IMG/VR virus record: IMGVR_UViG_3300042556_001421
Span: 1 to 34,379 of that record
Length of the DNA: 34,379 nt
Direction: 5' to 3' (one strand)
From: a virus
In this document: positions 11,673 to 34,379 of the stretch, piece after piece
Layout: every line of letters starts with the position of its first letter
Position numbering within the stretch: position 1 is the first letter of the stretch
Program-made: the position numbers and the translations under genes
The notes under the pieces: model-generated
What the model was told of the DNA's origin: nothing
The model's database searches: none
What the model saw: only the letters and a program-made list of their open reading frames with translations

Positions 11673-12734
11673 TTAAACTATTTCAAATATTAATTTATCA
11701 TCTATAATTGTAGATATACCACCTTCATCTATTTTTAATTTCAAAAGATAAGTTCTATTAATTGGTAATGTATTTAAATCCATTATAAAATAATTAGAAA
11801 TAGAATCACAACTAATTTTAGTATATTCACCAAATGGAAATATTATTTCATTTGTTTTATAATCTTCAATTTGATAATAAGTAGTACGTGGTAAATATTT
11901 TGTTTGGTCATATGCAAAAGTCCTTCCAAATGTTTTCAATGGAAACATATCTCTACCTTTAATTCTAACTTTTACTTTTTGATTTTGTGGATATTCTCTT
12001 TTTAAATTTTCAATAACTATTTTATAATCATCTTCAGCTGAACCCATAACTGGTGTTAAACTTCCTGTTATGAACAAACTATCATCCCAAACTATTTCTA
12101 ATTTTGGTTCATATATTGTATTAGTTTCTTTTGAAAAGAATTTTAACAAACCATAATCCAAATCATCGTTCTCATTTTCTAAACCATGATGAATGATTAT
12201 ACCATTATTTGGTAATGAACCACTAACCCATAAATTGATTATACTGGTTACATCCATTCTAATATCATCGGGTTCATAATTAAATGATTGAGATGTCGAA
12301 CCACTTAAATACCAAGTACCACCTTCTGCGTTTGCCGAACCTGTTGTTCCAGATGTAAACTCAGCAGTTCCAGCAATTACATTATCTTGCCAACTATCTA
12401 TTCCATTTCTATATTTCCAACTTACACCATCCGATGTTATGTTATCAAATTTAGTACCCGTACCCATTGTCCAACTTTGAGAAACGGCATTTGCATATAT
12501 CGTATACTCCAATGGAATTTCTTCAGAATTTGCAGATTTTAAATTTAAGAAGGCCTTCCAACCACTTCCTGTTTCTAAGTTTGACACATCAAATTTAATT
12601 AAAGTTCTTGTTATGTCTTTTGTAGAACCATAATAAAGTTTACCTACTTCTAATATTTCATCCCTACCAGTATTTTGGTCAGGTTGTTGTAGATATACAC
12701 TCGCGTCGTATGATGATGTATAAAATTTATGCAT
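11673..12734 (-). CDS. Structural protein with DNRLRE-like domain (353 aa)
   Basis: The first ~210 residues resemble the DNRLRE/CBM96-type beta-sandwich: a start with a repeated-strand Asp/Tyr pattern (ASVYLQQPDQNTGRDEILEV), then RTLIKFDVSNL, YTIYANAVSQSWTMGTGT, MDVTSIINLWVSG and a closing strand ending EPKLEIVW. In cellular proteins this domain occurs in extracellular, often carbohydrate-related proteins. The C-terminal third (from about residue 225) is a separate beta-rich domain. The stop of gp6 overlaps the ATG by one base (12734), so the two are translationally coupled and made in the same complex context. A role as a baseplate peripheral or fibre-attachment protein is an inference from position. 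Confidence 0.7.
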   Translation of the reverse strand: MHKFYTSSYDASVYLQQPDQNTGRDEILEVGKLYYGSTKDITRTLIKFDVSNLETGSGWKAFLNLKSANSEEIPLEYTIYANAVSQSWTMGTGTKFDNITSDGVSWKYRNGIDSWQDNVIAGTAEFTSGTTGSANAEGGTWYLSGSTSQSFNYEPDDIRMDVTSIINLWVSGSLPNNGIIIHHGLENENDDLDYGLLKFFSKETNTIYEPKLEIVWDDSLFITGSLTPVMGSAEDDYKIVIENLKREYPQNQKVKVRIKGRDMFPLKTFGRTFAYDQTKYLPRTTYYQIEDYKTNEIIFPFGEYTKISCDSISNYFIMDLNTLPINRTYLLKLKIDEGGISTIIDDKLIFEIV

Positions 12735-14752
12735 TATAAAGCCCTCCCTTTGATGTCTTTGTTAGGATATTTTACTTCGAAAACACATGGGTCTAAAGAT
12801 GGGTAAACAATTTTACCTTTAGTTGCGTCTTCTATATTATATCTATTTGTTGAATAATTTCCGTCACCACCACATAAATTTGAAATCTTAACAGATGGTA
12901 CACTCATAACTCCTTCTATATTTGCCAATATTAATTCTATTTCTGAAATATTAATTGGTTTATTAAATGTCCAGTTGTCGATTTCAAAATATCTTTGAAC
13001 TTCTGCCAAACAATTTGTAAGAACTTCTCTTTTATTATAATTTGAATAAGTTATAATTTCAAAATCTACCCCAATGTTTACTATAAATCCATTTATGATG
13101 TTTACACCATCGGTTAACATTCTATATTCACCTAAATAAGTTTTTAAATTTTGTTTAACCGCTTCGTTTAAGTTTGTTAATTTTTTATTTTGGTCATAAC
13201 CCAAAACATACATATTAATTGCAAATGGATTGTTTACTTCACTAATTGATGTTTTCTTTTGAGTAAGATATTTAACCAATTCTTTTTGAATATCCTGTTT
13301 TGACAAACCTTTGATGGATTCTACTAAATTTGTAAATTCGGTAATATTTTTAGGGTTAGCTAAAATCGATGAAGGACTATTATTGTCTATTTCACCATCC
13401 GGACTTACATATACTTTTGCAACACTACCATATCTTTCCGGCATTGACATCGCTCTTACTATATAGTCTTGTCTTGTTACTGCTCTATTTTGTGAACCAA
13501 ATGTGGCCAATGCGTTTTGTCTAATTTCTTCAATTGATTCCGAATCTCTACCTCCCGTTGCGGCTTCTAAGTTTTCAACTGCTACGGATAATTTTATATC
13601 ATTGTATGCTGCCAATTTATCATCCGGAATAGATAACAAATCATCTTCAAATTCTATTAATCTAATTGTTGTTAAATCTTTTTGATTTATATTTGAATTA
13701 ACACCTCCTCCTACTAAATATTTAATAGTTAATGAAGTATTGATTGGTGCAATTCCAAATGTATTTGTTTTTAAGAAATTAGATGGGTCAATTCCATCAT
13801 TCAATCTATTAACCGAATTGGCCAATCCTAATCCAACATTTTTTGGATTTGGTAAAATAATTCCATCATCCAATCTAACATCACCACTTCCAAATTGTAA
13901 ATCCATTGTATTATCCGAATTTACCTTTACACTAAATCGATGTGGAACTTTTTTAATTTCTAAAATATATGGTACTACTGAAGATGATATACTTAAATTT
14001 CCACCATTTTCTTCTGTATTTGGTTTTTCTATAAAAACACTTTCTTGTGCCAAATACGGAACCTCATACCATTTGGTATTACCACCATCGGATGTTACTG
14101 ATGTGATTTGTATTATGTTAGTATCGGAAAGAGTTACATTAGGGTAATCCGTATCATCACCAAATGCAATAACCGTTGAAACTTCTTCTGCAGATATTGC
14201 CTTTACTTTTTTACTTACTAAATATCTAGTCGGTACTCCATCTATTCCTCTTTCATAAACCTCAATCTCTCTTCCAACCGGTGATGAAAAGTCAACCGCA
14301 TCAACGGTTCTAAAGATAATAGATGCATTCGTAGTTGATTCGACCTCCATACCATCTTTAATTCTTAAATAAAAACTTTCATCTGGTCCATTATTTACAC
14401 CAATACCTGTTCCTGGTAATAATTGGTATACAGTTAATTCCGTAACCGCAGGTGATGTAACTTTTGGTTTATATCCCATCTGTTGTGCCAATGCCATAAC
14501 ATTTTTCCTTTCAGTTGCATGTGACAACATAGATTCTTTTAGTTGTACATCCTGATAAAATGATAACATATCACCTATGGCAGCTGCCTGGTCAATGAAT
14601 ATGCTACCAGGAGAAGCTTCTGAAAAATCGGCATACTGATTTGGAAAGTAGGTCTTAGTAAAATCTACTAGATTTTGTTTTAATGTTGCAAAGTCTTTAC
14701 CAACATATGATAATTCCTTAGTTCCTATATTATTTAAAGGTTTAATAGCCAT
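12734..14752 (-). CDS. 6: Baseplate wedge protein, gp6-like
   Basis: This 672-aa protein matches T4 gp6 (660 aa) in size and in N-terminal pattern: an opening LSYVGKDFATLKQNLVDFTK, then ASPGSIFIDQAAAIGDMLSFYQD and ERKNVMALAQQMGYKP. These are typical of gp6/gpJ-like baseplate wedge proteins, which form the inner ring of the baseplate and switch conformation on contraction. The middle contains the gpJ-like segment RAVTRQDYIVRAMSMPERYG. It sits directly after gp25, as gp6 and gp25 form a heterotrimeric wedge core with gp53/gp7 in T4. The start ATG at 14752 lies 2 bases after the gp25 stop. The family assignment is firm; contacts in this phage are inferred. Confidence 0.9.
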   Translation of the reverse strand: MAIKPLNNIGTKELSYVGKDFATLKQNLVDFTKTYFPNQYADFSEASPGSIFIDQAAAIGDMLSFYQDVQLKESMLSHATERKNVMALAQQMGYKPKVTSPAVTELTVYQLLPGTGIGVNNGPDESFYLRIKDGMEVESTTNASIIFRTVDAVDFSSPVGREIEVYERGIDGVPTRYLVSKKVKAISAEEVSTVIAFGDDTDYPNVTLSDTNIIQITSVTSDGGNTKWYEVPYLAQESVFIEKPNTEENGGNLSISSSVVPYILEIKKVPHRFSVKVNSDNTMDLQFGSGDVRLDDGIILPNPKNVGLGLANSVNRLNDGIDPSNFLKTNTFGIAPINTSLTIKYLVGGGVNSNINQKDLTTIRLIEFEDDLLSIPDDKLAAYNDIKLSVAVENLEAATGGRDSESIEEIRQNALATFGSQNRAVTRQDYIVRAMSMPERYGSVAKVYVSPDGEIDNNSPSSILANPKNITEFTNLVESIKGLSKQDIQKELVKYLTQKKTSISEVNNPFAINMYVLGYDQNKKLTNLNEAVKQNLKTYLGEYRMLTDGVNIINGFIVNIGVDFEIITYSNYNKREVLTNCLAEVQRYFEIDNWTFNKPINISEIELILANIEGVMSVPSVKISNLCGGDGNYSTNRYNIEDATKGKIVYPSLDPCVFEVKYPNKDIKGRAL

Positions 14753-14754
14753 TA

Positions 14755-15192
14755 TTAATTATTTACATTTATTTGAAGTGTATCTGATAAATTTGGATTT
14801 GATGTCAATGAAAATTTTATATCTAAAAATAGTTTATTATTGTCAATATCAACATCATCATAATCAAATACTATTTCGTTTATCGTTATATATGGCATCC
14901 AAATTGAAACCGCCTCTAATATTACACTTTCAATTTTATTTTCAATTAATTCTCCATCAATTTGTTCAAATATTAATTTCCATATATCACACCCAAATTC
15001 TGGTTCCATAATTCTTTCACCTTTGTGAGTTAGAATTAAGTTTTTTAAAGAATCTTTGGCTTGAGTTAATGTAGTATAATTAACAGCAAAAATACCATTG
15101 GAATCCGATGTCCTATTTACACCAATTCCTAATACTTTATAATTATTTTGTGTTAAGTCAGTAACATTAACTTTACCAAGTTCTATTGCCAT
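14755..15192 (-). CDS. 25: Baseplate wedge protein, gp25-like
   Basis: The 145-aa product has the gpW/gp25 family signature: LILTHKGERIMEPEFGCDIW at residues about 52-71, then IFEQID and an amphipathic helix, ending in a beta strand pair (LFLDIKFSLTSN ... LQINVNN). T4 gp25 has 132 residues. The protein joins gp6 in the wedge core next to the sheath-initiation site; the old lysozyme label for this family does not reflect a proven activity in T4. The ATG at 15192 follows the preceding stop by 3 bases, so it is in the same operon as the 166-aa gene. There is no Shine-Dalgarno site, only AAAAGATTTTAATAA before the ATG. Confidence 0.93.
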   Translation of the reverse strand: MAIELGKVNVTDLTQNNYKVLGIGVNRTSDSNGIFAVNYTTLTQAKDSLKNLILTHKGERIMEPEFGCDIWKLIFEQIDGELIENKIESVILEAVSIWMPYITINEIVFDYDDVDIDNNKLFLDIKFSLTSNPNLSDTLQINVNN

Positions 15193-18633: not shown

Positions 18634-20337
18634 TTATTTATTAATCAAATAATTTCCCAAAACCAAATAGTCCATATCACAATTGTTAAATGTCCAAAGT
18701 GCTTTTTCTGGGTCATTTGTCATTGTATGGTCTTTTAAATTGAATGATGTGTTCAATAGAATAGGTGTTCCTGTTAGTTTTTCAAACTCCTTTAGTAAAT
18801 CATAGTAAAGTGGGTTATCTTCTCTTTTAAGAGTCTGTATCCTTGCAGAATTGTCAACATGGGTTACTGAAGGTATGTTTACTCCACTTCTAACTTGAAC
18901 AACCTGATTCATATAAGGAACATCTTCTTCCGATACGAAATATTTTTTATAATCTTCAATTGTAACCGAAGGAGCAAATGGTCTAAACATTTCTCTCTTT
19001 TTGACAACCTTATTAATTCTATCTCTAATATCTGGAAGATGCGGATTACCCAATATAGAACGATTACCTAACGCTCTTGCACCAAATTCAGTTCTACTTT
19101 GAAACCATCCTATAATATTACCCTCATTAATTAATTTTGCAACTTCTTCACATAACATTTGTTTACTTTCATACATTGTAATACCATTACCCTTAACTCT
19201 TTTTTGCAAAATTATCTTAAGTAATTCAGGACCACTCCACTCTTCTCCCAAATATGGAGATTGATTATCACCACCCTTTACTTTTGGATTACCCAATATA
19301 ATGTGGTGTTGATATAAACATGCTCCAATAGCTGAACCGGCATCTGATGGTGCAAATGGAACCCATACATTCTTAATTGATGTATATGTTTTAATTTTAC
19401 CATTAGCTGTTCCATTATATGCACATCCTCCACCTAATACCAAATTTTCACTATTCCAAATATTGGTTATTCTATTAATAGTAAAATATAATGCACTTTC
19501 ATACCATCTTTGTAGTGATGCTGCAAGGTCTTTATGATGTTGTTCGATTGGTTCATCTTTGAAACGAGGGGGGAATCCAATTAAATCAATTAATTTACCG
19601 TTAAACATATCATTATCGGATGTTTCCCATGTAAAATACTTCATATCCATTTTTACAAGGTCAATTTCACCACCAATTGTTGCAACCTTATCAAACACAC
19701 TATGATATCTTTGTTTATCACCATATGGTGCTAATCCCATTACTTTATACTCACCTTCGTTTGGTTTAAATCCTAAATAAGCAGTAAATGCTGAATATAT
19801 TAATCCTAATGAATGTGGGAATTGTAAAGTTTGTATTTTATGAAATCCTTTATCATCACACATTGTAACATATATTGAATGTCTTTCACCAACTCCGTCA
19901 ATTGATAATCCAATTGCGTTATCAAAAGGTGATGTGTAATATGAAAGTGCTAAATGTGATAAATGATGTTGTGTGTAAGTGATAATTCCGTCATATCCAA
20001 TAGATTTTAATATTTTTCTCAAACCACCTTCGGTTTGATGCCACCTTTTATTAAATTCTCTCCATTTTTTAGGATATCTTAAACCACCCCATTTACCAAT
20101 AGTTTCTTTAACTCTATAATATTTGTCTTTTGGGTTTTCGTACCAACAAACCATATCAACTTCATCAATTGTTATTTTTGTATATTCTAAACACCATTGA
20201 ATTGCCTTAAACGGAAAAGAACTATCGTGTTTAATTCCTGATAGTTTCTCTTCTTCAATAGCACATATTACTTTACCATCTATAACGATTGCTGCAGCTG
20301 AATCGTGGTAAAATCCTGATAAACCTAATTGTATCAT
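18634..20337 (-). CDS. Carbamoyltransferase, NodU/TobZ/CmcH family
   Basis: The 567-aa length is that of full carbamoyltransferases, which transfer carbamoyl phosphate through a carbamoyl-adenylate to a hydroxyl group. The N-terminal ASKHA/Kae1-like domain shows YHDSAAAIV with His11, EEEKLSGIKHDSSFP, the metal-binding HHLSHLALSYY and IGLSIDGVGE. The C-terminal YrdC-like domain holds FQSRTEFGARALGNRSIL (about 403-421), then RFRPFAPSV-type sequence and GTPILLNTSFN. All appear intact. The gene starts 2 bases after the stop of the sigma factor gene and sits just before the structural module, so it may be expressed with late genes. Possible acceptors are a sugar on host surface or virion, or modified DNA; the acceptor cannot be read from sequence. 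Confidence 0.92.
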   Translation of the reverse strand: MIQLGLSGFYHDSAAAIVIDGKVICAIEEEKLSGIKHDSSFPFKAIQWCLEYTKITIDEVDMVCWYENPKDKYYRVKETIGKWGGLRYPKKWREFNKRWHQTEGGLRKILKSIGYDGIITYTQHHLSHLALSYYTSPFDNAIGLSIDGVGERHSIYVTMCDDKGFHKIQTLQFPHSLGLIYSAFTAYLGFKPNEGEYKVMGLAPYGDKQRYHSVFDKVATIGGEIDLVKMDMKYFTWETSDNDMFNGKLIDLIGFPPRFKDEPIEQHHKDLAASLQRWYESALYFTINRITNIWNSENLVLGGGCAYNGTANGKIKTYTSIKNVWVPFAPSDAGSAIGACLYQHHIILGNPKVKGGDNQSPYLGEEWSGPELLKIILQKRVKGNGITMYESKQMLCEEVAKLINEGNIIGWFQSRTEFGARALGNRSILGNPHLPDIRDRINKVVKKREMFRPFAPSVTIEDYKKYFVSEEDVPYMNQVVQVRSGVNIPSVTHVDNSARIQTLKREDNPLYYDLLKEFEKLTGTPILLNTSFNLKDHTMTNDPEKALWTFNNCDMDYLVLGNYLINK

Positions 20338-25158: not shown

Positions 25159-26226
25159 TTAAATTATTGTTTTTTTCATATCAATCAATTCGTACATATT
25201 ATGAAAAACATATGGATTGGTTGCAACCTTTTTAAATTCTTTTAAAAATAAGTTATGTTCCGGATGTGTGATATCCCCTACATCAATTAATTTAAATTGT
25301 CCATCATTAAATGTTCCCCAATTTGTAATTCTACCAAAAAATACTTTAGTTTTATTTTTGAATATGGAATACATTATATTTAAAAATGTATCCATTTCAT
25401 TATAATTTGAATCTTGAACTACAAAAGAACATTTAACACTTTGTAAACTTTTTATAGTTGATATAAAATTTAAATTTGATATTAAGTTATCCCAATTTCC
25501 TCCTAATCTAGTTTTATTTTCATATGTATCTTTAGTACCCGCATCTATACTAATTTCACAACTTTTAACATATTTATGAATATTTGGCATAGAATCCCAC
25601 ATTTCTTTATTCCACATCGATGCATTTGTATGTAAATGTATTGATTTTAATTTTGGATATTTTTTGGGATTAAAATTTCTTAAATAATTTCGAAATCCCA
25701 CCGAAACAAACGGGTCTCCAGAACCAGTTATATATAAAGTTTTTACGTTTGCAGAATAATGAGTATCAATTTCTTCTATTGTTTTTTCAACCCTTTTAAT
25801 ACCTTGACTATTTTCAACAATTAAATCTACTCTACAAGATGGACATTTATAATTACATGTCCTATCAAATGACATTTGAATTATTTCGGGCCCTTCATTT
25901 ACTATTCCAGTTTGTTCGTCATAACATAGTTTCATTTTATCATCCAAATCATTTATATGAATAATAGGGCCGTTGGTTGTTGGTTTTAGTGATATTAATC
26001 TGGATAAAAATGGACATTTTGTTTTACTGCAATAACGATATGAACCATCCATTACTGATTTTCGTATTTCGATAGCTTCATCCGAATTCCATATATCTTG
26101 TATAGGAACACCATTTGGTAATTCTTTGGATAACCAACTGGCACAACACATATAATTTTTGTTTTGCATTATTTCTAATGCCTGAAATGGAACCGTACAA
26201 ACATACTCTTTCAAATCTACTATCAT
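25159..26226 (-). CDS. Radical SAM enzyme with N-terminal SPASM-like Cys region
   Basis: The 355-aa protein carries the [4Fe-4S] motif CxxxCxxC as DRTCNYKCPSC (Cys124, Cys128, Cys131) followed by a TGSGDPF segment (167-173) in the place of the SAM-binding GGE motif. Before the core there is a ~75-residue region with Cys10, Cys27, Cys28, Cys66 and Cys71 and a SPASM-like pattern (CCASWL, IQDIWNSDEAIEIRKSV, YCSKTKCPF), suggesting an auxiliary iron-sulfur cluster at the N-terminus rather than the usual C-terminus. SPASM/twitch radical SAM enzymes often modify peptides or sugars. It is last in a run of overlapping genes (4-base overlap with the sulfotransferase) and its C-terminus MKKTII resembles those of neighbours. 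Substrate unknown; the enzyme class is firm. Confidence 0.9.
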   Translation of the reverse strand: MIVDLKEYVCTVPFQALEIMQNKNYMCCASWLSKELPNGVPIQDIWNSDEAIEIRKSVMDGSYRYCSKTKCPFLSRLISLKPTTNGPIIHINDLDDKMKLCYDEQTGIVNEGPEIIQMSFDRTCNYKCPSCRVDLIVENSQGIKRVEKTIEEIDTHYSANVKTLYITGSGDPFVSVGFRNYLRNFNPKKYPKLKSIHLHTNASMWNKEMWDSMPNIHKYVKSCEISIDAGTKDTYENKTRLGGNWDNLISNLNFISTIKSLQSVKCSFVVQDSNYNEMDTFLNIMYSIFKNKTKVFFGRITNWGTFNDGQFKLIDVGDITHPEHNLFLKEFKKVATNPYVFHNMYELIDMKKTII

Positions 26227-26720
26227 AATAACTTATTTTTATAATTAGATTTATTTCCTTTTCTTAATCTATCACTACTATTAACATCAAATATATCTTC
26301 ATAATAAGATATTGGAATATTAATTTGTTTTGATAATACATTTAATTCATCATTCCACCTCATTATATCATCATAACAAAGTTTAAATACAGAATCAACT
26401 ACATCTTCATAGTAATATTCATTGTTTGAATTATAATTTTTTACTTTAGAAAAATAAGTTTGATATGCATGTGATTCTGCACATTCTAATAAATTTTTTC
26501 TAGATAACAATATAATTTGGTCAAACTCTTCGGATAATTTTATGTTATTTGAATGGTGTGATATTATTGTTTTTACAACCACATTATCCTCACCATTATA
26601 TTTAACTCTATTACTACCATCAAATGGTTCAAATAATGGTTTTAAGTTTTTGTCCTTTGCCAATTTATGTAACAATGAAGTTGAACCTGTTCTTGGTAAC
26701 GATATTATTAAAATTCTCAT
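26223..26720 (-). CDS. Short sulfotransferase-like protein
   Basis: The first strand and loop ISLPRTGSTSLLHKL (6-20) match the 5'-phosphosulfate-binding P-loop of PAPS sulfotransferases, and SRKNLLECAESHAYQT (73-88) fits the 3'-phosphate-binding segment with Arg74 and Ser83. At 165 aa it is shorter than typical sulfotransferases (about 250-300), so the substrate-binding part is minimal. It overlaps the preceding oxygenase by 4 bases (ATGA) and the following radical SAM gene by 4. The catalytic base is not obvious. The family could also act as a general nucleotide-binding fold, so sulfation is likely but not certain. Confidence 0.8.
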   Translation of the reverse strand: MRILIISLPRTGSTSLLHKLAKDKNLKPLFEPFDGSNRVKYNGEDNVVVKTIISHHSNNIKLSEEFDQIILLSRKNLLECAESHAYQTYFSKVKNYNSNNEYYYEDVVDSVFKLCYDDIMRWNDELNVLSKQINIPISYYEDIFDVNSSDRLRKGNKSNYKNKLL

Positions 26721-27262
26721 ATTATCGTTTTTTTATTTTTTAATGGTTTGTATTTAAAATCGGTATTTGTCATCCATATATTTAATGCATATCGTATCCC
26801 AGTTACAACCGGAATAACACCATGATAAATTTTATTACCATCAAATGAAATAGATTGGCCGATATTTAGATGATATTTTTCGGCATCATTAATATCTTTA
26901 TATGAATTTGATAATGCAAATCTACCATCATTAAATCCATCCGATAAAACAATTACGGTAGTAAGTTGAGAAGTTCTATCCAAATGTAAATCTAACCATC
27001 TACCATCATAATATTTTGTCAAACTAATATTTACATCTTTTATATCAAATTCATTTAAATCAAACCACAATTTAAAAGTATTATTTTCGTAATTTGTTTT
27101 TAATTTATTTACAATATTTTCTTTGAATTTTTCATCATAAATTCGTTTGCAATCCCACACCTCTTTTGGATTATATGAAAATGGAATACCTATATCATCT
27201 GTAAATTTTATTATAGATTCACACTCATCTTTATTAAAAATATTATTAATTGAATATTCCAT
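26717..27262 (-). CDS. 2OG-Fe(II) oxygenase (prolyl-4-hydroxylase type)
   Basis: The 181-aa protein has the complete motif set: HLD (His93, Asp95) in WLDLHLDRTSQLTTVIVLS, a distal His147 in KIYHGVIPVVTG and Arg157 (GIRYAL) to bind 2-oxoglutarate. DGRFALSN between them is the usual core strand. Such enzymes hydroxylate or otherwise oxidise protein side chains, nucleobases or small molecules. It sits between the SGNH hydrolase (1-base overlap) and a sulfotransferase (4-base overlap), so hydroxylation followed by sulfation of the new hydroxyl is an attractive, untested idea. It ends KNKKTII, a tail shared with neighbours. Confidence 0.92.
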   Translation of the reverse strand: MEYSINNIFNKDECESIIKFTDDIGIPFSYNPKEVWDCKRIYDEKFKENIVNKLKTNYENNTFKLWFDLNEFDIKDVNISLTKYYDGRWLDLHLDRTSQLTTVIVLSDGFNDGRFALSNSYKDINDAEKYHLNIGQSISFDGNKIYHGVIPVVTGIRYALNIWMTNTDFKYKPLKNKKTII

Positions 27263-28086
27263 TATATTAAATTATTTTTTCTTTTACTATTTTTATCGGT
27301 AATTAAATTGGAGTTTAATATAAACCCACACAATTCTTCAGCAATTAATTTATAACCAAAATTATTTGGGTGTTTACCTTGAGTTGATTGACTCCAATAA
27401 GAATTATCTTCCCAAACATCTTTTCTTTTTAAATCAATTAAAAAGTTTGCAAATGTCTTTTCTTTATATCCCCAATATCTACTATCATCAATTAAATTAC
27501 CATAATCAATTTCACTAATTACATTTTTACTAATCATATTATCAAATGCATCACAAAAAAGATATTGTATTCCCATTTCTTTAAACATAAATTGTAAATG
27601 TAATATATAGTTTTGATTTACAATATCATAATATGGTGTACTAAACAAATTGGTTATGTAATAATCTCTAAAATCTTTTTCTACTCTATTATAGGTTATG
27701 TTTTTGCCAGTGATACCATCAAAAATATATTTAATCAAATGTTGTTTACTTTTATATCGTTCACCCCAAATGTGAAGAGAATCTTCGTTTGGAAAAAAGG
27801 GTAGTTGGTCTCTTAGAGAAGATGACCACATAATAACAACAAAATCATCTTGAGTGATGATTTCATTTTTTAATTGATGACAGATTGAATTAAATATTGC
27901 ATTATTTGAGAATGCACCGACCCCTAAATTAACAAATTCACATTTAAGTAAGTCCGATAAATGTTTTGGCCAACAATATTTTTGTCGTATTATTGTGCGT
28001 TCTTCTGCAATTGATGTACTATATTCTTCGGTTAAATTTCCACCTACACCTTCTGTCCAACTATCACCAAATGCAAATAACTTCAT
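27262..28086 (-). CDS. SGNH/GDSL-type hydrolase
   Basis: The 274-aa protein opens with FAFGDSWTEGVGG (catalytic Ser9 in block I), followed by VNLGVGAFSNN (Gly57, block II), VVIMWSSSLRD (block III, with Ser in place of the usual Asn) and HPNNFGYKLIAEE (catalytic His239, block V). The normal Asp three residues before the His is not evident. These enzymes cleave or transfer acyl groups, commonly acetyl on glycans. It begins after the 44-aa gene with a 14-base gap and couples to the oxygenase gene by TAATG. A second, more divergent SGNH gene lies at 32331-33056. Confidence 0.85.
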   Translation of the reverse strand: MKLFAFGDSWTEGVGGNLTEEYSTSIAEERTIIRQKYCWPKHLSDLLKCEFVNLGVGAFSNNAIFNSICHQLKNEIITQDDFVVIMWSSSLRDQLPFFPNEDSLHIWGERYKSKQHLIKYIFDGITGKNITYNRVEKDFRDYYITNLFSTPYYDIVNQNYILHLQFMFKEMGIQYLFCDAFDNMISKNVISEIDYGNLIDDSRYWGYKEKTFANFLIDLKRKDVWEDNSYWSQSTQGKHPNNFGYKLIAEELCGFILNSNLITDKNSKRKNNLI

Positions 28087-28100
28087 AATACATTAACATA

Positions 28101-28235
28101 TTATAAATGTTTTTCTTTAATTTTGGTTACAACTTGTTGAAATGCTGTTTTAACTTTATTTTTTAATTCGGAGTTAATCGGTACAATTAATGTTTTAATT
28201 ACCGTTTTTGGTCTATGTATTCTATTATTTGACAT
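28101..28235 (-). CDS. Small basic protein (44 aa), unrecognised
   Basis: An open frame beginning ATG TCA AAT AAT and ending CAT TTA TAA. The product is strongly basic (MSNNRIHRPKTVIKTLIVPI at the start; KVKTAFQQVVTKIKEKHL at the end), with one hydrophobic strand and a helix. It fills the space between the ATP-grasp/Hint gene and the SGNH gene exactly, and the upstream 11 bases contain AAATAAAT typical of initiation regions here. It may be a partner peptide, nucleic-acid binder or substrate of the adjacent enzymes; nothing more can be said from the sequence. Confidence 0.6.
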   Translation of the reverse strand: MSNNRIHRPKTVIKTLIVPINSELKNKVKTAFQQVVTKIKEKHL

Positions 28236-28246
28236 ATATTTATTTT

Positions 28247-29725
28247 TTATAATTTTTCTTGGAAACAGTTAGGACAATAGGTTGAGTGGCAGTAAAACCC
28301 ACAAAATCTCCAAGTACACCAACATGCATTGTGCATTATACCAAAATCACCTTCACCAAAATCTACTAAAAACAAATCCGATGGTTCAAAATCCAAACTA
28401 TATATTGTTTTAACACCATATTCCATTTCTAAATTTGAAATTTCTAATGTTGTTAGTTCGTTTGTGTCCTTATCGGTAATAACTAATTTATCACCAATAT
28501 ACATTCTATTCAACATTTCAAATCTAGTAGATAGTGACCCAGATTCCTCAATGTAATAGGTAGTAGAAGGTGCATCTACCCAACTTTTACCATCTGTGGT
28601 TGTAATTCTAATATACATAGTATCAACCGATGCTGAATATAATCCCACAAGACTAGAACTCATCGGTGTTAATGTTGTATTCGATTGTTGCACCGTTGAA
28701 TCCCAACCTAAAACATTTATTTTACCTTCTTCAAAATTAGCAGCTTCATTATTATTAAAATCTACGAAATTAATAGAACGAATGTAATCACCCAATTGAA
28801 TTGTATCTACATCAGATAATGTTCCATCGTAATTTAAAATAACAGAGTCGTTATCGGTGTGATAATCACGATATTTACCATCTGTTAATTTTGTTATATA
28901 TTTATATCTACTTTTTTGATTAAGTTTTGTTGTAGATTCAACAAACTCATTTTCTGAGAAATTCACAGGTATAATAGTAGATTGTCTATATCCGCCCATA
29001 TTGATTATATCCAATTCACTACCGAAGATGATATCAATACTTCTTATGATAGAATATCTACCCTCCACCAAATTATCTTCCGAATATAAAAATTCTTGTA
29101 ATAAATAACCTGTTGGTAGGTTTGTTTTTAAGTTCTCTAATTGTGACTCCTGTGTTAATGTGTGTAATTCTGGATATGATTTGTTATCATATTCCGGTAC
29201 TCTAGCCTTAATAAGAACATTTGGATGTAGTGGATTTGACATATCCAATGTGTCAAATGTATCTATTCCAATTGATTCATCTACTTGGAAAGTCTTAGGT
29301 GTATAACCACTTCCACTCATAAGATTGAAAAACTCAAATTTATCTGCACAATATGTATCATCAACCAATGCGGTTGTATCATATGACATTCTTAAGATAA
29401 ATTTATTAGGGGCATCTTCTATATAAGGAATAGTTACAGCACCCATTGTAACTTGATATTCGTTAAAACTGATATTATTTTCAACACATCTTTCTTCTAA
29501 TATATCTTTAAATCTAAACTCTTCATTTAATGGATAGTATGAATCTCCTTCTGTCCATACAAAATGTAATTCGTTTATGTTATTTTCATTTAACATATTA
29601 AAAAATACATCGTAATCCAACATATCAGCACCGGTATTGTATATTGTGGTGTTTGTATTGATTTCTAAAAATTTAACATCACCATTGTGTTCCAACAAAT
29701 CACTTCCAATTATTGTTCCTTTCAT
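28247..29725 (-). CDS. ATP-grasp-like protein fused to Hint-like domain and Cys-rich C-terminal peptide
   Basis: Residues 1-30 carry KFLEINTNT, resembling the metal-binding end of ATP-grasp enzymes, and 108-250 hold ATP-grasp-like elements (FILRMSYDTTALVDD, DKFEFFNLM, VLIKARV with Lys173, GYLLQEFLY at 207-214, IIRSIDIIFG). The order is permuted relative to classical ATP-grasp, so the assignment is tentative. Residues ~294-466 look like a Hint/intein-like fold: SVILNYDGTLSDVDTIQLGD, then YIGDKLVITDKD, TLEISNLE, IYSLDFEPSDLFLVD and the terminal GIMHN at 462-466. The block-A cysteine is missing. After Asn466 come 26 residues with six Cys (WCTWRFCGFYCHSTYCPNC). A late-type motif (29746-29753) lies 20 bases upstream. 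Possible role: peptide ligation or release of a Cys-rich peptide. Confidence 0.6.
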   Translation of the reverse strand: MKGTIIGSDLLEHNGDVKFLEINTNTTIYNTGADMLDYDVFFNMLNENNINELHFVWTEGDSYYPLNEEFRFKDILEERCVENNISFNEYQVTMGAVTIPYIEDAPNKFILRMSYDTTALVDDTYCADKFEFFNLMSGSGYTPKTFQVDESIGIDTFDTLDMSNPLHPNVLIKARVPEYDNKSYPELHTLTQESQLENLKTNLPTGYLLQEFLYSEDNLVEGRYSIIRSIDIIFGSELDIINMGGYRQSTIIPVNFSENEFVESTTKLNQKSRYKYITKLTDGKYRDYHTDNDSVILNYDGTLSDVDTIQLGDYIRSINFVDFNNNEAANFEEGKINVLGWDSTVQQSNTTLTPMSSSLVGLYSASVDTMYIRITTTDGKSWVDAPSTTYYIEESGSLSTRFEMLNRMYIGDKLVITDKDTNELTTLEISNLEMEYGVKTIYSLDFEPSDLFLVDFGEGDFGIMHNACWCTWRFCGFYCHSTYCPNCFQEKL

Positions 29726-29745
29726 AAAATATTTTTATTATTTAC

Positions 29746-29753
29746 TATAAATA
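29746..29753 (-). promoter_or_regulatory. Late-type motif, before the ATP-grasp/Hint gene
   Basis: Coding strand TATTTATA within ACATATTTATAGT, 20 bases before the ATG at 29725, the same spacing as at 4544. It suggests this gene is expressed late, unlike the genes just upstream served by class A promoter A4. Confidence 0.55.
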
Positions 29754-29765
29754 TGTGTAGTTTGA

Positions 29766-30056
29766 TTAAATTACACTTTTTTTATCCTTTTTAGGTAATT
29801 TTAAATTATATGACATATCTACCACATCCCACTTTTGTTTTGGACATGGATTGAATAATGATGAAAATACTTTTTTACTCAATGGACAACCACATGCATT
29901 ACATATTGTTGACCACTTTTGTCCTTTTATTGTTTCTTTTTTATGTTCACACCCCTTACATATGTCCAATCTCTTTTGAGCTATTTCCGTTTGTAATGGT
30001 GTTGGATTCATCGATGTTATCCATGCATCAAATATTTCTTTATAATTGGGTATCAT
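29766..30056 (-). CDS. Small zinc-ribbon-like protein (96 aa)
   Basis: Six cysteines in a conserved spacing: Cys33 and Cys36 (CKGC), Cys52, Cys55 and Cys57 (CNACGC) and Cys71 (CPKQKW). The motif CxxC...CxxCGCPLxxK...CPxxKW recurs in many small phage and bacterial proteins (DUF6171-like) and likely binds one zinc ion. The N-terminal 30 residues are helical. Function unknown. It overlaps the preceding sulfotransferase by 4 bases (ATGA), ends KKDKKSVI, and is followed by the late-type promoter motif, so it closes the transcript starting at promoter A4. Confidence 0.8.
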   Translation of the reverse strand: MIPNYKEIFDAWITSMNPTPLQTEIAQKRLDICKGCEHKKETIKGQKWSTICNACGCPLSKKVFSSLFNPCPKQKWDVVDMSYNLKLPKKDKKSVI

Positions 30057-30829
30057 ATTAATGATTTAGTATTTTTTGGTAAATCATAATAGTCGTAAAT
30101 ACTATTATATCTATTTTTAAATTCATCGTTTAATTCTAATTTAATTTTAATATCAGAATGAGAATTTACATGTTTTAATTTGAAATTTTTACCAGTTATA
30201 TTTGAAACCCATTTTTCCATTTCAGATAGATTATTCATATCAAACCATATTATATTTTTATCATTATTGTGCCAAATTGATTTTGGTGATATTAAAATAT
30301 CTAATATACTAATTAGTACAACATCTACATTATGTGTATTAAAAGATAATACTGGTTTTTTTGGAATATCCATATAGTTTTTAATAAATCCATTTTTAAT
30401 TAAAAATTTATTTATTATATCCCATCTTTTGGTAACAGTCATCAAATCTTTTGTTTCATAAAAAAACAATTCGTCTAAGTTGATGTTTGCAAACCAATTT
30501 GAAAATTTGTGTGAACCGGTTCTATTTGTATCATAGATAATATGTTTATACAAAGAAAGGAAAGCTTCATGTCTATCTCTTCGTACGGCTATTACCGGTA
30601 AGTTATGTCCAAATTTTTTTCTTAAGTCGGAGATTGGTGAATGACCATGTGAGATTGAATTCATGATTTCCAATTCATTTATGTTTGTAAAATCAATTGA
30701 ATTATTACGAGTATCCATATCTGAATTAATATTATTAACACTTATACCACTCAGTATACACGAATAGTGAAACGATGTTGAACCACATCTAGGTAGTGAA
30801 ATGTATAAAAATTTATTGTCTATTAACAT
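30053..30829 (-). CDS. Sulfotransferase family protein
   Basis: The 258-aa protein begins with FLYISLPRCGSTSFHYSC (7-24), the PAPS-binding loop, and carries VRRDRHEAFLSLYKHII (82-98), the 3'-phosphate-binding segment with Arg83/Arg84 and Ser92. His61-His63 in SISHGHSP may form part of the acceptor site. The length and motif spacing fit bacterial and phage sulfotransferases. Coupled by TAATG to the oxygenase upstream and by ATGA to the zinc-ribbon gene downstream, it repeats the oxygenase-then-sulfotransferase order seen at 27262-26223, which suggests paired action. Confidence 0.85.
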   Translation of the reverse strand: MLIDNKFLYISLPRCGSTSFHYSCILSGISVNNINSDMDTRNNSIDFTNINELEIMNSISHGHSPISDLRKKFGHNLPVIAVRRDRHEAFLSLYKHIIYDTNRTGSHKFSNWFANINLDELFFYETKDLMTVTKRWDIINKFLIKNGFIKNYMDIPKKPVLSFNTHNVDVVLISILDILISPKSIWHNNDKNIIWFDMNNLSEMEKWVSNITGKNFKLKHVNSHSDIKIKLELNDEFKNRYNSIYDYYDLPKNTKSLI

Positions 30830-31470
30830 TATATTAAGGATTTTTCTTTTTTTATGAAATCAAATCCAACATTGCAGGCAACTACTATTCTATCAATGTT
30901 TGAATTGGGTGCGTTGTTTGGTGCATGTGGTAAATCACCCTCCATTATAATTAAATCATCTTCTTCCGGCATAATAAAATATTCTTTTCCTGATTTACTC
31001 ATAACATATAATACACCATCTTCATTATCCATCATATCTGGCATTTGAATATAATATACAAATGTATAATTCGGAAAAAAGGATTTGTTTTCTTTATTAA
31101 TCTCTGTATGTGTATGATATTTTTCTTCATCATTATAGAAATTTGGTTGAATAGGGTTTTTAGAACGAACAACATTTACCCAAGATTCTACATTTATTTT
31201 ATTGTATGGTAGTTGTTTTTCATCATATATATTTTTGCAACTATCTATACCCAACTGAATTATTCTATATAAATTCACATCTCCACTTACTTTTCCCTTA
31301 AAATCTAAATCGTTATTCCATTCTTTTATAATTGGGTAACTATCATTTGTTGAATTTGGGATAAGACTTATAAAGTATTCTGCTTCTTTTAAGAATATGG
31401 TCTTATCCTCTAAAAGATTTAATTTAGTTTTCCAAACGAATGTGGTATCATCAAAATATATTTTTTCCAT
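30829..31470 (-). CDS. 2OG-Fe(II) oxygenase, cupin-like (PF13759-type)
   Basis: The 213-aa protein shows HTHTE (His119, His121, Glu123), a strand YTFVYYIQMP, a DGVLYVMSKSGKEYFIMPEE core, PHAPNNAP with distal His182, and RIVVACNVGF with Arg194. This order (HxH/D...H...R, with W/Y-rich strands before it) matches putative 2OG-Fe(II) oxygenases often found in phages. It differs in detail from the prolyl-hydroxylase type at 26717-27262, so the two probably act on different positions or substrates. Its ATG follows a 16-codon micro-ORF driven by promoter A4. It ends KKEKSLI and couples to the sulfotransferase by TAATG. Confidence 0.82.
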   Translation of the reverse strand: MEKIYFDDTTFVWKTKLNLLEDKTIFLKEAEYFISLIPNSTNDSYPIIKEWNNDLDFKGKVSGDVNLYRIIQLGIDSCKNIYDEKQLPYNKINVESWVNVVRSKNPIQPNFYNDEEKYHTHTEINKENKSFFPNYTFVYYIQMPDMMDNEDGVLYVMSKSGKEYFIMPEEDDLIIMEGDLPHAPNNAPNSNIDRIVVACNVGFDFIKKEKSLI

Positions 31471-31471
31471 A

Positions 31472-31522
31472 TTAAATTAAACTTTTTGTTTTTGGTTTAT
31501 TGATATCAATTATACTACTCAT
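31472..31522 (-). CDS. Possible 16-aa leader micro-ORF
   Basis: A short frame (MSSIIDINKPKTKSLI) lies between promoter A4 and the oxygenase start, ending one base before the oxygenase ATG. Its last residues TKSLI match the C-termini of several full-length neighbours. It could be a translated leader that brings ribosomes to the oxygenase start, or the fossil end and start of a lost gene whose initiation region was retained. The start ATG is preceded by AAAAAATTAAT, the same A-rich initiation pattern as other genes. Confidence 0.35.
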   Translation of the reverse strand: MSSIIDINKPKTKSLI

Positions 31523-31543
31523 ATTAATTTTTTAATAGTGCTA

Positions 31544-31575
31544 TCAATATACGATATATTTTTGAATTTACCAAA
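31544..31575 (-). promoter_or_regulatory. Class A promoter A4
   Basis: Coding strand TTTGGTAAATT-N10-TCGTATATTGA. The -33-like TTG and the -7-like TATATTGA are separated by 20 bases, as in the three other copies. It fits the Bacteroidetes TTG/TAnnTTTG promoter with one or two mismatches. It drives the micro-ORF, oxygenase, sulfotransferase and zinc-ribbon genes. A 6-bp imperfect hairpin (31532-31547) begins in the -7 element. Confidence 0.75.
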
Positions 31576-31591
31576 TAAATAATTTTTTAAT

Positions 31592-32344
31592 TTATATTAA
31601 ATTTTTATTTTTTAGTTTCAAAATTGCAATTATATCTTTCTGCACTAAGTTTAAATAATTCAATTTTTTAATTTTTATTTCCAATTCTTCGATTTTAGAG
31701 ATATCTGATACATTTTTATTTTCTAATTCTCCAATTTTAGACATATGTGACGAAATTTCATACTCTAATTTTTTAATTTTGTCTACTTGTAATAAATTTT
31801 TATCTTCTAATTTTGAATAATCATTCCAATCATATTGACTATATTGATGTGATATCATAGTTTCTAAATATTTTGAATCCATTTCTGCCAATCTATTTAA
31901 CTTATTTGATAAAACACAATCTACTTTGATAAATTCATATTTGTTATAACTATAAGTTGGTACCATATCAATTGGAAATAATTCGGACAATTGTCTTAAT
32001 TTTACAAAACGAAATTTATGAATACACCATGAATCATAAACCTGTTTATATAAAAATGGATACCAATGCCTACTTTTTTCATTTTCTAAATCATATAATA
32101 TTTCTGATATTGATTTAGGAGTGCAACCCATATCTGTATTTATTGCTGATAAAATATGTTCTTCAATTGGTCTCCATACAAATATAGTATCACTATGTAC
32201 GTTATCTTTAAGTTCGTATACATTTAAATGAATTGTTTCTATTAGATGTGTATCATCAATACTGCTCAACCAACGTGTACCACATTTACCTGGAGCAATC
32301 AAATCCAATCCGTTTTTAAAGATATATCTTTTAATGAATGTCAT
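31592..32344 (-). CDS. Sulfotransferase-like protein with C-terminal coiled coil (250 aa)
   Basis: The first ~160 residues have a sulfotransferase-type layout: LIAPGKCGTRWL (15-26) at the phosphate-loop position, FVWRPIEEHILSAINTDM (55-72) at the 3'-phosphate site, and HWYPFLYKQVYDSW and FVKLRQLSELF further on. From residue ~170 comes a heptad-rich helix with a near-duplication (SKIGELENKN then SKIEELEIKI). It is clearly paralogous to the partial gene at 33793-34379 and more distantly to 33053-33793. The Lys-Cys-Gly-Thr loop replaces the usual Lys-x-Gly-Thr/Ser, so PAPS binding is plausible, not certain. It overlaps the SGNH gene by 14 bases and ends in KNKNLI just before promoter A4. Confidence 0.65.
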   Translation of the reverse strand: MTFIKRYIFKNGLDLIAPGKCGTRWLSSIDDTHLIETIHLNVYELKDNVHSDTIFVWRPIEEHILSAINTDMGCTPKSISEILYDLENEKSRHWYPFLYKQVYDSWCIHKFRFVKLRQLSELFPIDMVPTYSYNKYEFIKVDCVLSNKLNRLAEMDSKYLETMISHQYSQYDWNDYSKLEDKNLLQVDKIKKLEYEISSHMSKIGELENKNVSDISKIEELEIKIKKLNYLNLVQKDIIAILKLKNKNLI

Positions 32345-33056
32345 AGTTTTTAGTTATTTTGTTAAATACATAATATGCAAATGCAATATTGAATTGTTGT
32401 CCCCAATGAAAATCCAATTTGCGGCCGATTTGGCCATTTGTCTCATACCATTGGTCATTTAATGTTTGCCAAAATCCTATTTCTTTTGTTAAAAATGATT
32501 TATCTTTAATAAAATCAACTTGGTGTTCCATTTCGTCCCATGTAAATACAAAATTATTACAAGGAGTCAATTTTAACAAACTATCTACTACTTCTATTTG
32601 ATTTAATTGTGAGGAAGTAGTTGAATTAATTATTTCTTGATTTTGCATCATTTTCATCAATTCTTTTGAGTTTAATTGATTATCCCAAAATTCTAATTTC
32701 ATATGTTCGTCAACTAATTGAGGGCCGACAAACCTATTAATAATTTTAATATCGTTTGGGTAAGGTTTATATGTTTTATACCAATTTGATTCTTTTAACG
32801 GAACTCTTGTTCTTCTGAAATAAGGTAAACATATTACTAACAAATCCGTTTCGTTTAAATGTGGAATAAGTTTAATCCAGTTATCTAATATTGTTTGGAC
32901 ATCTCTATTTGCAATACCATCTACGATAACATCTATATCATTCAGTTTTAATAAATTTTTAAGTCTTTCAATCCAAAACCACGAATCATCCCACCCTTTC
33001 ACATACTTACAAGGAACGGTAAACGAATCTCCAATAACAAATAATCTCTTTATCAT
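32331..33056 (-). CDS. SGNH-hydrolase-like protein, divergent
   Basis: The 241-aa protein starts LFVIGDSFTVP (block I, Ser11). Later segments VDGIANRDVQTI and LLVICLPYFRRTR fit the block II and III strand positions, and the C-terminal LDFHWGQQFNIAF supplies a possible catalytic His217 with Asp215 two residues before (DxH rather than the canonical DxxH). The block II Gly/Asn signature is weak, so it is either a divergent esterase/acyltransferase or a fold-only relative. It is coupled to its neighbours by ATGA upstream and a 14-base overlap downstream, inside a sulfotransferase-like gene pair. Confidence 0.6.
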   Translation of the reverse strand: MIKRLFVIGDSFTVPCKYVKGWDDSWFWIERLKNLLKLNDIDVIVDGIANRDVQTILDNWIKLIPHLNETDLLVICLPYFRRTRVPLKESNWYKTYKPYPNDIKIINRFVGPQLVDEHMKLEFWDNQLNSKELMKMMQNQEIINSTTSSQLNQIEVVDSLLKLTPCNNFVFTWDEMEHQVDFIKDKSFLTKEIGFWQTLNDQWYETNGQIGRKLDFHWGQQFNIAFAYYVFNKITKNYDIH

Positions 33057-33793
33057 ATTTTGGGGTGGGGGTTGGGGGGTAAAGTCGTTTTTAAAGAAAA
33101 TTTTTTATATCTCTTTTGATAGTTCTTATTATCTTCCACTTTCCACAACTTATCGGAATTAATTATCAAATTATAAAAAAATTCATCAATTGGTATATTT
33201 TTCATTAAAGATGAATAATAGTATGGATATGACAATTTAAGGTAATCCATTGCTTCATTTTTATCTATTTGAAAACCATTTGAACGACTAAAATCAAACT
33301 CCGTTGATTCATACGGTTTATGTAGATTAAGTTCCCATTCACAAAATGTAGTTAAATTTTCCAATTTTACAAATTTCACATCATTATAATCCATACTTTT
33401 TAAAAACATCTCTTTATATAAATTAAATTGATAATGACCACAACTCCAATCACAAAATCTTAAATTGTGTATTATATCCTTTTCATTGTTCTTATCAGGA
33501 TTTCTTGTCCAGTTTAAAATCAATTCGGTATGTACAGCACTTACAAGTAAATCCATTGGTGGTCGTATGATAATCCATTTAATACCATCAATGTTTAATT
33601 TTGAAAATGGACTTAAATGGTGAGTTACTTTAATTTTTGGAGGTATAACTTTAGATGTGAGTGTTGTTCCTTTTGGTAATACGATAGTTGAAGGAAACCC
33701 ACCACCATCCGGCACACCATATATGGAGTCCAAATAACGAGAACCACATTTGGCGGGAGCAAGAACCTTTTTATCGTAAAAATTAAAATGCAC
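33053..33793 (-). CDS. Sulfotransferase-like protein (246 aa), GTG start
   Basis: KKVLAPAKCGSRYLDSIYG (8-26) occupies the PAPS-loop position and WIIIRPPMDLLVSAVHTEL (73-91) the 3'-phosphate position, as in the paralogues on each side; HYQFNLYKEMF and VKFVKLENLTTF repeat the later conserved blocks. It lacks the C-terminal coiled coil. The start is GTG, overlapping the TAG stop of the preceding gene (TAGTG); no ATG lies nearby in frame. Its last residues, TLPPNPHPKI, are encoded by an exceptional C-rich run (33061-33079), so the C-terminus could shift if that homopolymer was misread. Confidence 0.6.
   Translation of the reverse strand: MHFNFYDKKVLAPAKCGSRYLDSIYGVPDGGGFPSTIVLPKGTTLTSKVIPPKIKVTHHLSPFSKLNIDGIKWIIIRPPMDLLVSAVHTELILNWTRNPDKNNEKDIIHNLRFCDWSCGHYQFNLYKEMFLKSMDYNDVKFVKLENLTTFCEWELNLHKPYESTEFDFSRSNGFQIDKNEAMDYLKLSYPYYYSSLMKNIPIDEFFYNLIINSDKLWKVEDNKNYQKRYKKFSLKTTLPPNPHPKI
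33061..33079. other. G-rich run (plus strand) in an AT-rich context
   Basis: Runs of four, five and six G on the plus strand separated by T or TT encode the Pro-rich end of the sulfotransferase-like protein at 33053. It could fold as a G-quadruplex or be prone to homopolymer errors. Confidence 0.5.
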
Positions 33794-34379
33794 TATTTAT
33801 TTAACTTTTTAAGTTGTTCGATTTCGGTTTGTAAATCCATTACCTTACACATCATTTCCAAACGAGAATCTTCCAAATCGGAATATGCTTCCCAATCCTT
33901 TTCACTATATTGTGATTTAATCATGGACTTAAGCCACTTTTCTTCTTCACTAATTAAGCTTTCCAATCGAATGTTATCTTTGGGTGATAGTAAACTTAGA
34001 GCGGATTCTATACTATCCCATTTTGGGGGTAAAGAAAGATTATACATGTTTGAAGTCCATTGCAATTCTCTTGCGGATGGAGTAAGTTCGGAAAGAGCTC
34101 GTAGTTTGTGAAATCGGAAACCGGTTTTCTCCCATATATCATATAATTCTCTATATAAGTGTGGATACCAATGTGCACAAATACCCAATTCTATTTCGGT
34201 TATAATATTCAATATATCTCTATAAGGGTCTGCAGCCGATTCGGTTTTTATTGCGGATATAAAATGTTCTCTAACGGGTCTCCATATAAAAGTAGTTCCA
34301 CTATGTACATTTTTTTGTAAATCGGTAATGTCAATTGAAAATGTAGATATACGATTTTCAACATCCAATCCCCCCAACC
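33793..34379 (-). CDS. Sulfotransferase-like protein with C-terminal coiled coil, 5' end outside window
   Basis: The frame is open to the window edge. The leftmost codons read xGG-Leu-Gly-Gly-Leu-Asp, aligning with RWLSSID in the paralogue at 31592-32344, so the TTG at 34377 is an internal leucine and about 25 N-terminal residues with the phosphate loop are missing. Conserved blocks present: FIWRPVREHFISAIKTE, HWYPHLYRELYDIW, FRFHKLRALSELTP, then a coiled coil ending QTEIEQLKKLNK. Its G+C content (hand count of bases 34021-34140: 48 of 120) exceeds that of the paralogue (bases 31681-31740: 15 of 60), which suggests a different history. It couples to the next gene by TAGTG. Confidence 0.65.
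   Translation of the reverse strand, partial: LGGLDVENRISTFSIDITDLQKNVHSGTTFIWRPVREHFISAIKTESAADPYRDILNIITEIELGICAHWYPHLYRELYDIWEKTGFRFHKLRALSELTPSARELQWTSNMYNLSLPPKWDSIESALSLLSPKDNIRLESLISEEEKWLKSMIKSQYSEKDWEAYSDLEDSRLEMMCKVMDLQTEIEQLKKLNK

Follow-up and report, generated by a model that had tools for sequence, protein, structure and literature searches.

A phage gene cluster in which unrelated modifying enzymes with a shared C-terminal tag surround a Hint protein with a variable Cys-rich tail

Proteusins offer a described parallel to a cluster of genes at positions 25159-34379 of a viral DNA record from IMG/VR (IMGVR_UViG_3300042556_001421; linear, 34,379 bases; the window, below, is this entire record). 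In the proteusin pathway with the flavin-dependent brominase SrpI, a ribosomally made precursor carries a C-terminal core behind a structured upstream part, and the halogenase acts on that precursor (PMC10858898). The phage cluster is comparable in centering on a ribosomal product, the Hint protein, with a structured part upstream of a C-terminal Cys-rich peptide on which enzymes (among relatives, a halogenase) would act. It differs in that proteusin enzymes bind the leader, whereas the phage enzymes carry a common C-terminal tag; moreover, release would be by way of the Hint domain, and the system is phage-borne, with no transporter recognised.

The Hint domain itself resembles those of bacterial intein-like (BIL) proteins and pretoxins in its fold, in placing a terminal His-Asn ahead of a variable C-terminal partner and, putatively, in cleaving without a nucleophile at position +1. 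Unlike these, it has no nucleophile at residue 1, its partner is a Cys-rich peptide of 25-55 residues instead of a toxin domain, and its neighbours are tailoring enzymes, no secretion module having been found at the phage locus. Flavin halogenases, several with 2-oxoglutarate (2OG) oxygenases encoded nearby, are also found in the T4-like phages P-SSM2, Syn1, S-H38 and HTVC008M and, as VirX1, in cyanophage Syn10 (PMC8407142). Those halogenases and oxygenases of HTVC008M, P-SSM2, Syn1 and S-H38 that were checked are, in contrast, untagged, and neither the Hint protein nor the radical S-adenosylmethionine (SAM) enzyme of the window has a match in the phage collection (the Hint protein also has no relative in the genome-contig collection). 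In HTVC008M, P-SSM2 and Syn1 (L283, L284 and L285, respectively) an untagged Trp halogenase is encoded near a 2OG oxygenase gene, and the substrates of these enzymes may be a related question.

Short C-terminal motifs that recruit unrelated proteins to one partner are familiar from encapsulin cargo-loading peptides and PDZ ligands. The phage tag is like them in its brevity, its position, its occurrence on unrelated proteins and its presumptive single partner, and unlike them in being mostly confined to one operon; no encapsulin or PDZ receptor was identified for it, although none was specifically sought. We know of no system that combines a ribosomally synthesized and post-translationally modified peptide (RiPP) pathway, a Hint domain of the BIL/pretoxin type and short docking tags, and of no counterpart to tag-based recruitment of tailoring enzymes. 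Searches of the open-access literature, with the terms tried, gave no description of this system.

The Hint gene and its conserved neighbourhood

The cluster proves to be real and conserved, being carried by at least 80 relatives of this environmental phage, and the Hint gene is its invariant centre. Scans of viral contigs with the Hint protein (52 loci) and with the radical SAM enzyme (80 loci) as queries returned the same neighbourhood independently; three further scans extended this result, and relatives of the two window proteins come from ~170 viral loci. The usual gene order is 2OGb-STb-Zn-Hint-(SGNH)-2OGa-STa-radical SAM (2OG, oxygenase; ST, sulfotransferase-like; Zn, a small Cys-rich protein), with variable enzyme genes interspersed. 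All 38 radical SAM loci that extend more than 9 kb upstream also carry the Hint gene, beside which the small Cys-rich gene stands in 62 of the 72 Hint loci with both flanks. The sequence-only reading of the window, which had proposed a modification pathway, named such a neighbourhood analysis as its check: co-occurrence and order are strong, and independent occurrence in random order was not seen. In several relatives the cluster adjoins an untagged 906-residue fusion of a GT4 glycosyltransferase with an FkbM methyltransferase (L094:10294-13014); elsewhere it adjoins a very long gene (~1,575-2,033 codons; L030:14181-20282, L037:15387-21265) followed by repeated genes for 370-residue proteins that end in SGHCGWRx.

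The Hint protein of the window (492 residues; 28247-29725; like the main genes of the window generally, all cluster features located below lie on the minus strand) is untagged and consists of an N-terminal domain (28865-29725), a Hint domain (28328-28864) and, following His-Asn, a Cys-rich tail (28250-28327; ACWCTWRFCGFYCHSTYCPNCFQEKL). An AlphaFold2 model based on 48 relatives has a mean predicted local distance difference test score (pLDDT) of 82. Its residues 284-469 match inteins, BIL domains and hedgehog with Z scores of 12.8-17.0 over 126-158 residues, and residues 288-466 superpose on an intein from residue 1 through the last residue. The terminal H465-N466 is invariant in the 48 aligned sequences, and His-Asn is present in all 81 distinct full-length proteins. 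Position 288, corresponding to intein residue 1, is Tyr or Lys and never Cys in the 48-row alignment, and the residue that follows the Asn (+1) is of 14 kinds among relatives, which rules out a splicing intein.

Of the previous designation as an ATP-grasp/Hint protein, the Hint part is thus upheld by fold (Z up to 17), and the ATP-grasp part is not: comparison of the N-terminal domain, in native or permuted order, with Pfam, with sequences from the PDB and, by hhalign, with RimK-like proteins yielded no ATP-grasp profile. Fold searches with the full-length model, dominated by Hint, list only Hint matches, and a single-sequence model of this domain alone is unusable (pLDDT 34). Its invariant residues are D9, E21, N23, K173 and R228.

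The C-terminal Cys-rich peptide is the only hypervariable part of the Hint protein. Tails extend for 25-55 residues beyond the Asn, and the number of Cys in 74 distinct tails is six (49 tails) or eight (25 tails) and never odd, in 34 different spacings. Between relatives whose Hint protein bodies are 75-83% identical, the non-Cys positions of the tail are 40-49% identical. A hypervariable tail with an even number of Cys, behind a Hint domain without splicing nucleophiles, is what would be expected if a diversified peptide, forming disulfides or binding metal, were cut and not spliced. Features by which RiPP pathways are recognised are found here: a variable core (74 tails) beside the conserved part of a ribosomal precursor, and tailoring enzymes encoded alongside that precursor throughout the conserved neighbourhood.

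A C-terminal tag on unrelated enzymes

Eight non-homologous proteins of the window share a C-terminal tag, approximately KxxK[TS]LI-COOH, and the majority of cluster genes in other loci have it too. Among relatives the consensus is Lys at positions -7 and -4, Thr, Ser or Asn at -3, Leu or Ile at -2 and Ile or Leu as the last residue; its carriers belong to at least 13 families, including oxygenases, sulfotransferase-like and SGNH proteins, radical SAM enzymes, Trp halogenases, SET methyltransferases and GT90 glycosyltransferases. The presence of one tag on more than 12 unrelated enzyme families, centred on one phage operon, is a strong sign of a common binder.

The tag was scored with a profile built by leaving out the family under test, at a threshold of 1% false positives relative to a background of 847 open reading frames (ORFs) taken from three long phage contigs, excluding the cluster. 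In the window, 8 of 35 genes score positive, precisely the eight just mentioned (including STa, above the 99th percentile of the background), and the other 27 are negative. Tagged proportions are 61/64 for STb, 51/54 for the small Cys-rich (Zn) protein, 49/57 for radical SAM, 38/47 for 2OGb, 135/177 for 2OGa, 42/64 for STa, 12/22 for the halogenase and 32/81 for SGNH. Cluster families are thus tagged at ~40-100%, as against none in flanking families (carbamoyltransferase, 0/24; Hsp20, 0/22; nucleotidyltransferase, 0/34); Hint proteins are likewise untagged (0/70). On long contigs G001 and G004, seven of nine and eight of nine tag-like ORFs fall inside ~8 kb; on G005 they are also concentrated in the cluster region, but with more outliers. 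No distinct Hint locus lacks tagged neighbours inside 6 kb; their median number is 7.

A general trait of T4-like phages is ruled out as the origin of the tag by its near absence from Mel-JY01 (0/270 ORFs) and immuto (1/238), and by the untagged enzymes of the cultured phages referred to above. Common ancestry of the C-termini is ruled out by the leave-one-family-out scoring and by the cellular homologues of the radical SAM enzyme, which end before the start of the tag.

Directly 3' of the Hint gene, in every locus examined, is an ORF for 24-50 residues. This mini-gene specifies 44 residues in the window (28101-28235, before the SGNHa gene; untagged). Products in the window's group have ~45 residues and end in or near KIKxKHL; those of a second group (B) have 24-29 residues and end in IGxLIxxxNS, and those of the tandem-Hint group (described below) have 46-50. 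Codon changes in the second group number 1134 at third positions versus 349 and 294 at first and second positions, a more than 3-fold bias that implies translation. As the sole untagged partner besides the Hint protein in every locus, the mini-protein is a candidate receptor for the tag.

Enzyme families and surroundings of the cluster

In the window the cluster consists of 12 minus-strand ORFs of at least 60 residues, the last one cut by the contig end, and the mini-gene brings the total to 13, the number that had been read from the sequence. Near-universal overlap or contact of these genes had also been claimed; this holds for the majority of junctions, with three gaps (28087-28246, which holds the mini-gene; 29726-29765; 31471-31591). 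The order of oxygenase then sulfotransferase does occur twice, at 27262-26223 and 31470-30053. That account made no mention of the shared tag, of the Cys-rich tail and mini-gene, or of the additional families (halogenase, SET and GT90) in relatives.

The assignments of family vary in firmness. The radical SAM enzyme (355 residues; 25159-26226; tag ...DMKKTII) is supported by Pfam Radical_SAM (2.5e-6; 28.2 bits, against a cut-off of 29.5) and by CxxxCxxC at 124-131, which together with five N-terminal Cys is invariant across 30 relatives; two members of the tagged protein set match NCBIfam N_Twi_rSAM. A cellular homologue of this enzyme lies within an 834-residue protein, between flagellin-like genes, of a Bdellovibrio metagenome-assembled genome (L131:8591-11095), and might be linked to flagellin modification. 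Both 2OG-Fe(II) oxygenases are corroborated as well: 2OGa (181 residues; 26717-27262; tag ...KNKKTII; PHROG 3.2e-11) and 2OGb (213 residues; 30829-31470; tag ...KKEKSLI) match Pfam at 3.3e-5 and 2.6e-4, slightly under the curated cut-off, and HxD/E...H...R is seen by eye. PF13640 is matched by 11 of 72 tagged proteins.

Of the two proposed SGNH enzymes, SGNHa (274 residues; 27262-28086; tag ...KRKNNLI) is supported by PF19547 (2.8e-7) and Lipase_GDSL (7.4e-4), and the untagged SGNHb (241 residues; 32331-33056) shows a GDS block and a late His, with no Pfam match above cut-off. The five sulfotransferase-like proteins are identified through motifs of the type that binds 3'-phosphoadenosine 5'-phosphosulfate, recognised by eye, and a single profile match, a weak one, to STa (165 residues; 26223-26720; tag ...NYKNKLL; Sulfotransfer_3, 0.027; LPRTGSTSL). 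The other four are assigned on motifs: STb (258 residues; 30053-30829; tag ...NTKSLI; LPRCGSTSF and VRRDRHEAFLSL; no Pfam match), STc (250 residues; 31592-32344; tag ...KNKNLI; PGKCGTRWL and FVWRPIEEHILSA), STd (246 residues; 33053-33793; untagged; PAKCGSRYL; no Pfam sulfotransferase match) and STe (33793-34379; untagged; FIWRPVREHFISA), whose 5' end is cut by the contig end and of which the close relative L054 has a longer copy. The small Cys-rich protein (96 residues; 29766-30056; tag ...KDKKSVI) is Zn or Fe-S ribbon-like and matches PHROG 13558 (1.5e-8). A 16-codon ORF (31472-31522; MSSIIDINKPKTKSLI) in the 121-bp gap comprises little besides a tag, ending in KTKSLI; at the same site L054 has a gene of the halogenase family (410 residues) and another for 187 residues, and the short ORF may be all that remains of an enzyme gene.

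Tagged proteins of relatives add to this repertoire: several kinds of 2OG oxygenase, Asp/Asn hydroxylase, radical SAM, SGNH, SET and FkbM methyltransferases, GT90 glycosyltransferase and a flavin-dependent Trp halogenase (Pfam 1.6e-90) in which the WxWxIP motif is present (as GWMWQIP in the L002 protein). The halogenase is encoded in 13 of 21 group A loci with flanking sequence, as against 0 of 7 in group B.

A T4-like structural block fills the left two thirds of the window and includes baseplate wedge proteins (12734-14752 and 14755-15192). Compared with phage records, the gp6-like baseplate protein is most similar (39-42% identity) to proteins of Flavobacterium phage immuto, Microcystis phage Mel-JY01 and an uncultured phage. 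The baseplate wedge genes are followed by genes for a carbamoyltransferase, a peptide deformylase, Hsp20 and a phosphohydrolase-like protein. The carbamoyltransferase (567 residues; 18634-20337, minus strand; PHROG 2.2e-115) is Nol-like and untagged, with ~30% identity to its cyanophage and pelagiphage counterparts, and a phage endonuclease I-like protein (Pfam 3.3e-53) is truncated at the other contig end (1-390, minus strand). The psbA/Photo_RC photosystem gene family was not found in 16 related contigs.

A possible peptide assembly line and its alternatives

We favor, with a probability of about one half, a RiPP-like peptide assembly line encoded by the phage, in which the tagged enzymes would dock and modify the Cys-rich peptide of the Hint protein before Asn cyclisation frees it. 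The 492-residue protein would be a precursor composed of N-terminal domain, Hint domain and a core peptide of 25-55 residues. The tag would dock the unrelated enzymes on a common partner, most likely the N-terminal domain of the Hint protein or the mini-protein, and the docked enzymes would hydroxylate, sulfate and acylate or deacylate the peptide (and, in relatives, also halogenate, methylate and glycosylate it). Having lost its N-terminal nucleophile and kept the terminal His-Asn, the Hint domain would then cut at its C-terminus only, by Asn cyclisation. Once freed, the peptide might leave the cell at lysis as an antimicrobial against competitors or as an agent active on the host envelope, or it might become part of the virion; these uses are the likeliest. 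More broadly, and tentatively at somewhat short of even odds, the cluster could be regarded as a modular peptide factory of large environmental phages, in which a C-terminal docking code recruits interchangeable non-homologous enzymes to a precursor whose Hint domain would first retain and later free the hypervariable peptide.

The sequence-only reading had offered a phage or host polymer and the peptide of the Hint protein as alternative substrates. The peptide is now the better option, since the cluster is invariably centred on the Hint gene, whose product has a hypervariable tail, and since relatives add families that tailor peptides (Trp halogenase, SET, GT90, Asp/Asn hydroxylase). The accompanying scheme of hydroxylation followed by sulfation at one site is speculation, because gene order is not evidence for reaction order.

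Several observations weigh against the assembly line. The principal one comes from tandem-Hint relatives, in which canonical Hint domains with Cys1 replace the Cys-rich tail (three in L066, 3179-5917; one in L122, 6063-7925) and the tagged enzymes are retained; no convincing separate gene for a Cys-rich peptide was found in these loci, and the substrate there must differ. Disulfides form poorly in the cytoplasm, so the Cys of the tail may bind metal instead, and neither a transporter nor a signal peptide was recognised. SGNHb, STd and STe of the window and many SGNH relatives are untagged. Finally, all halogenase-bearing loci have Trp in the tail; this could be a link between enzyme and peptide, but it is a lead only, confounded by shared descent.

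The tandem-Hint loci figure also in an alternative that we consider unlikely, though deserving of weight: that the enzymes act on something else made by the phage (tail fibre, baseplate or surface glycan), that the tag serves assembly of a complex, and that the tail of the Hint protein is merely a metal-binding or adhesin piece. The window cluster is indeed near a T4-type structural block, and many clusters in relatives adjoin a very long repetitive gene (1,247-2,221 codons) or the GT4-FkbM fusion. On the other hand, clusters are also found away from such long genes, as in the window, and an incidental tail is not readily squared with hypervariability confined to that part of the invariant central gene.

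The hydrophobic end of the tag admits an improbable explanation, that a host protease reads it as a degradation or timing signal and removes the enzymes together, without docking. Substrates of ClpXP and Tsp typically carry short hydrophobic C-terminal signals. Nevertheless, the tag seldom occurs outside one operon and the partners of a single precursor, its conserved Lys and Ser/Thr positions exceed what mere hydrophobicity would require, and it is missing from the Hint protein and the mini-protein, which are encoded in that operon. It is more doubtful still that the tag is a signal for sorting or ligation, either bringing the enzymes inside the head of the phage or another compartment or, if the N-terminal domain is a ligase, presenting the C-terminal carboxylate as its substrate. 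The free carboxylate and conserved last residues are compatible with this, as is the arrangement of D9, E21, N23, K173 and R228, which recalls a permuted ATP-grasp; yet ATP-grasp is without profile support, and there is no evident reason for packaging enzymes that depend on O2 and cofactors. That the tag simply reflects nucleotide sequence which an A+T-rich genome needs for overlapping stop and start codons or for initiating translation is largely refuted and very improbable: 55% of tagged genes abut or overlap the gene that follows and the last codon favours ATA, but codon use in the tag otherwise largely matches the genome, with Ser encoded by TCN and AGY alike (as expected of constraint on the protein), more than 30 bp follow 17% of tagged genes, and genes outside the cluster are untagged.

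If modification of the peptide were shown, the assembly line would constitute a new class of RiPP and, as such, a new class of virus-made ribosomal natural product with a docking logic that is the reverse of leader recognition. If the tag is a docking code, tailoring enzymes could be brought to a peptide by simple means, and the stacks of 2OG oxygenases, sulfotransferase-like proteins and halogenases with unknown substrates in some phages would be accounted for. The hypervariable even-Cys peptides would make up an extensive and unexplored group of peptide products from viruses.

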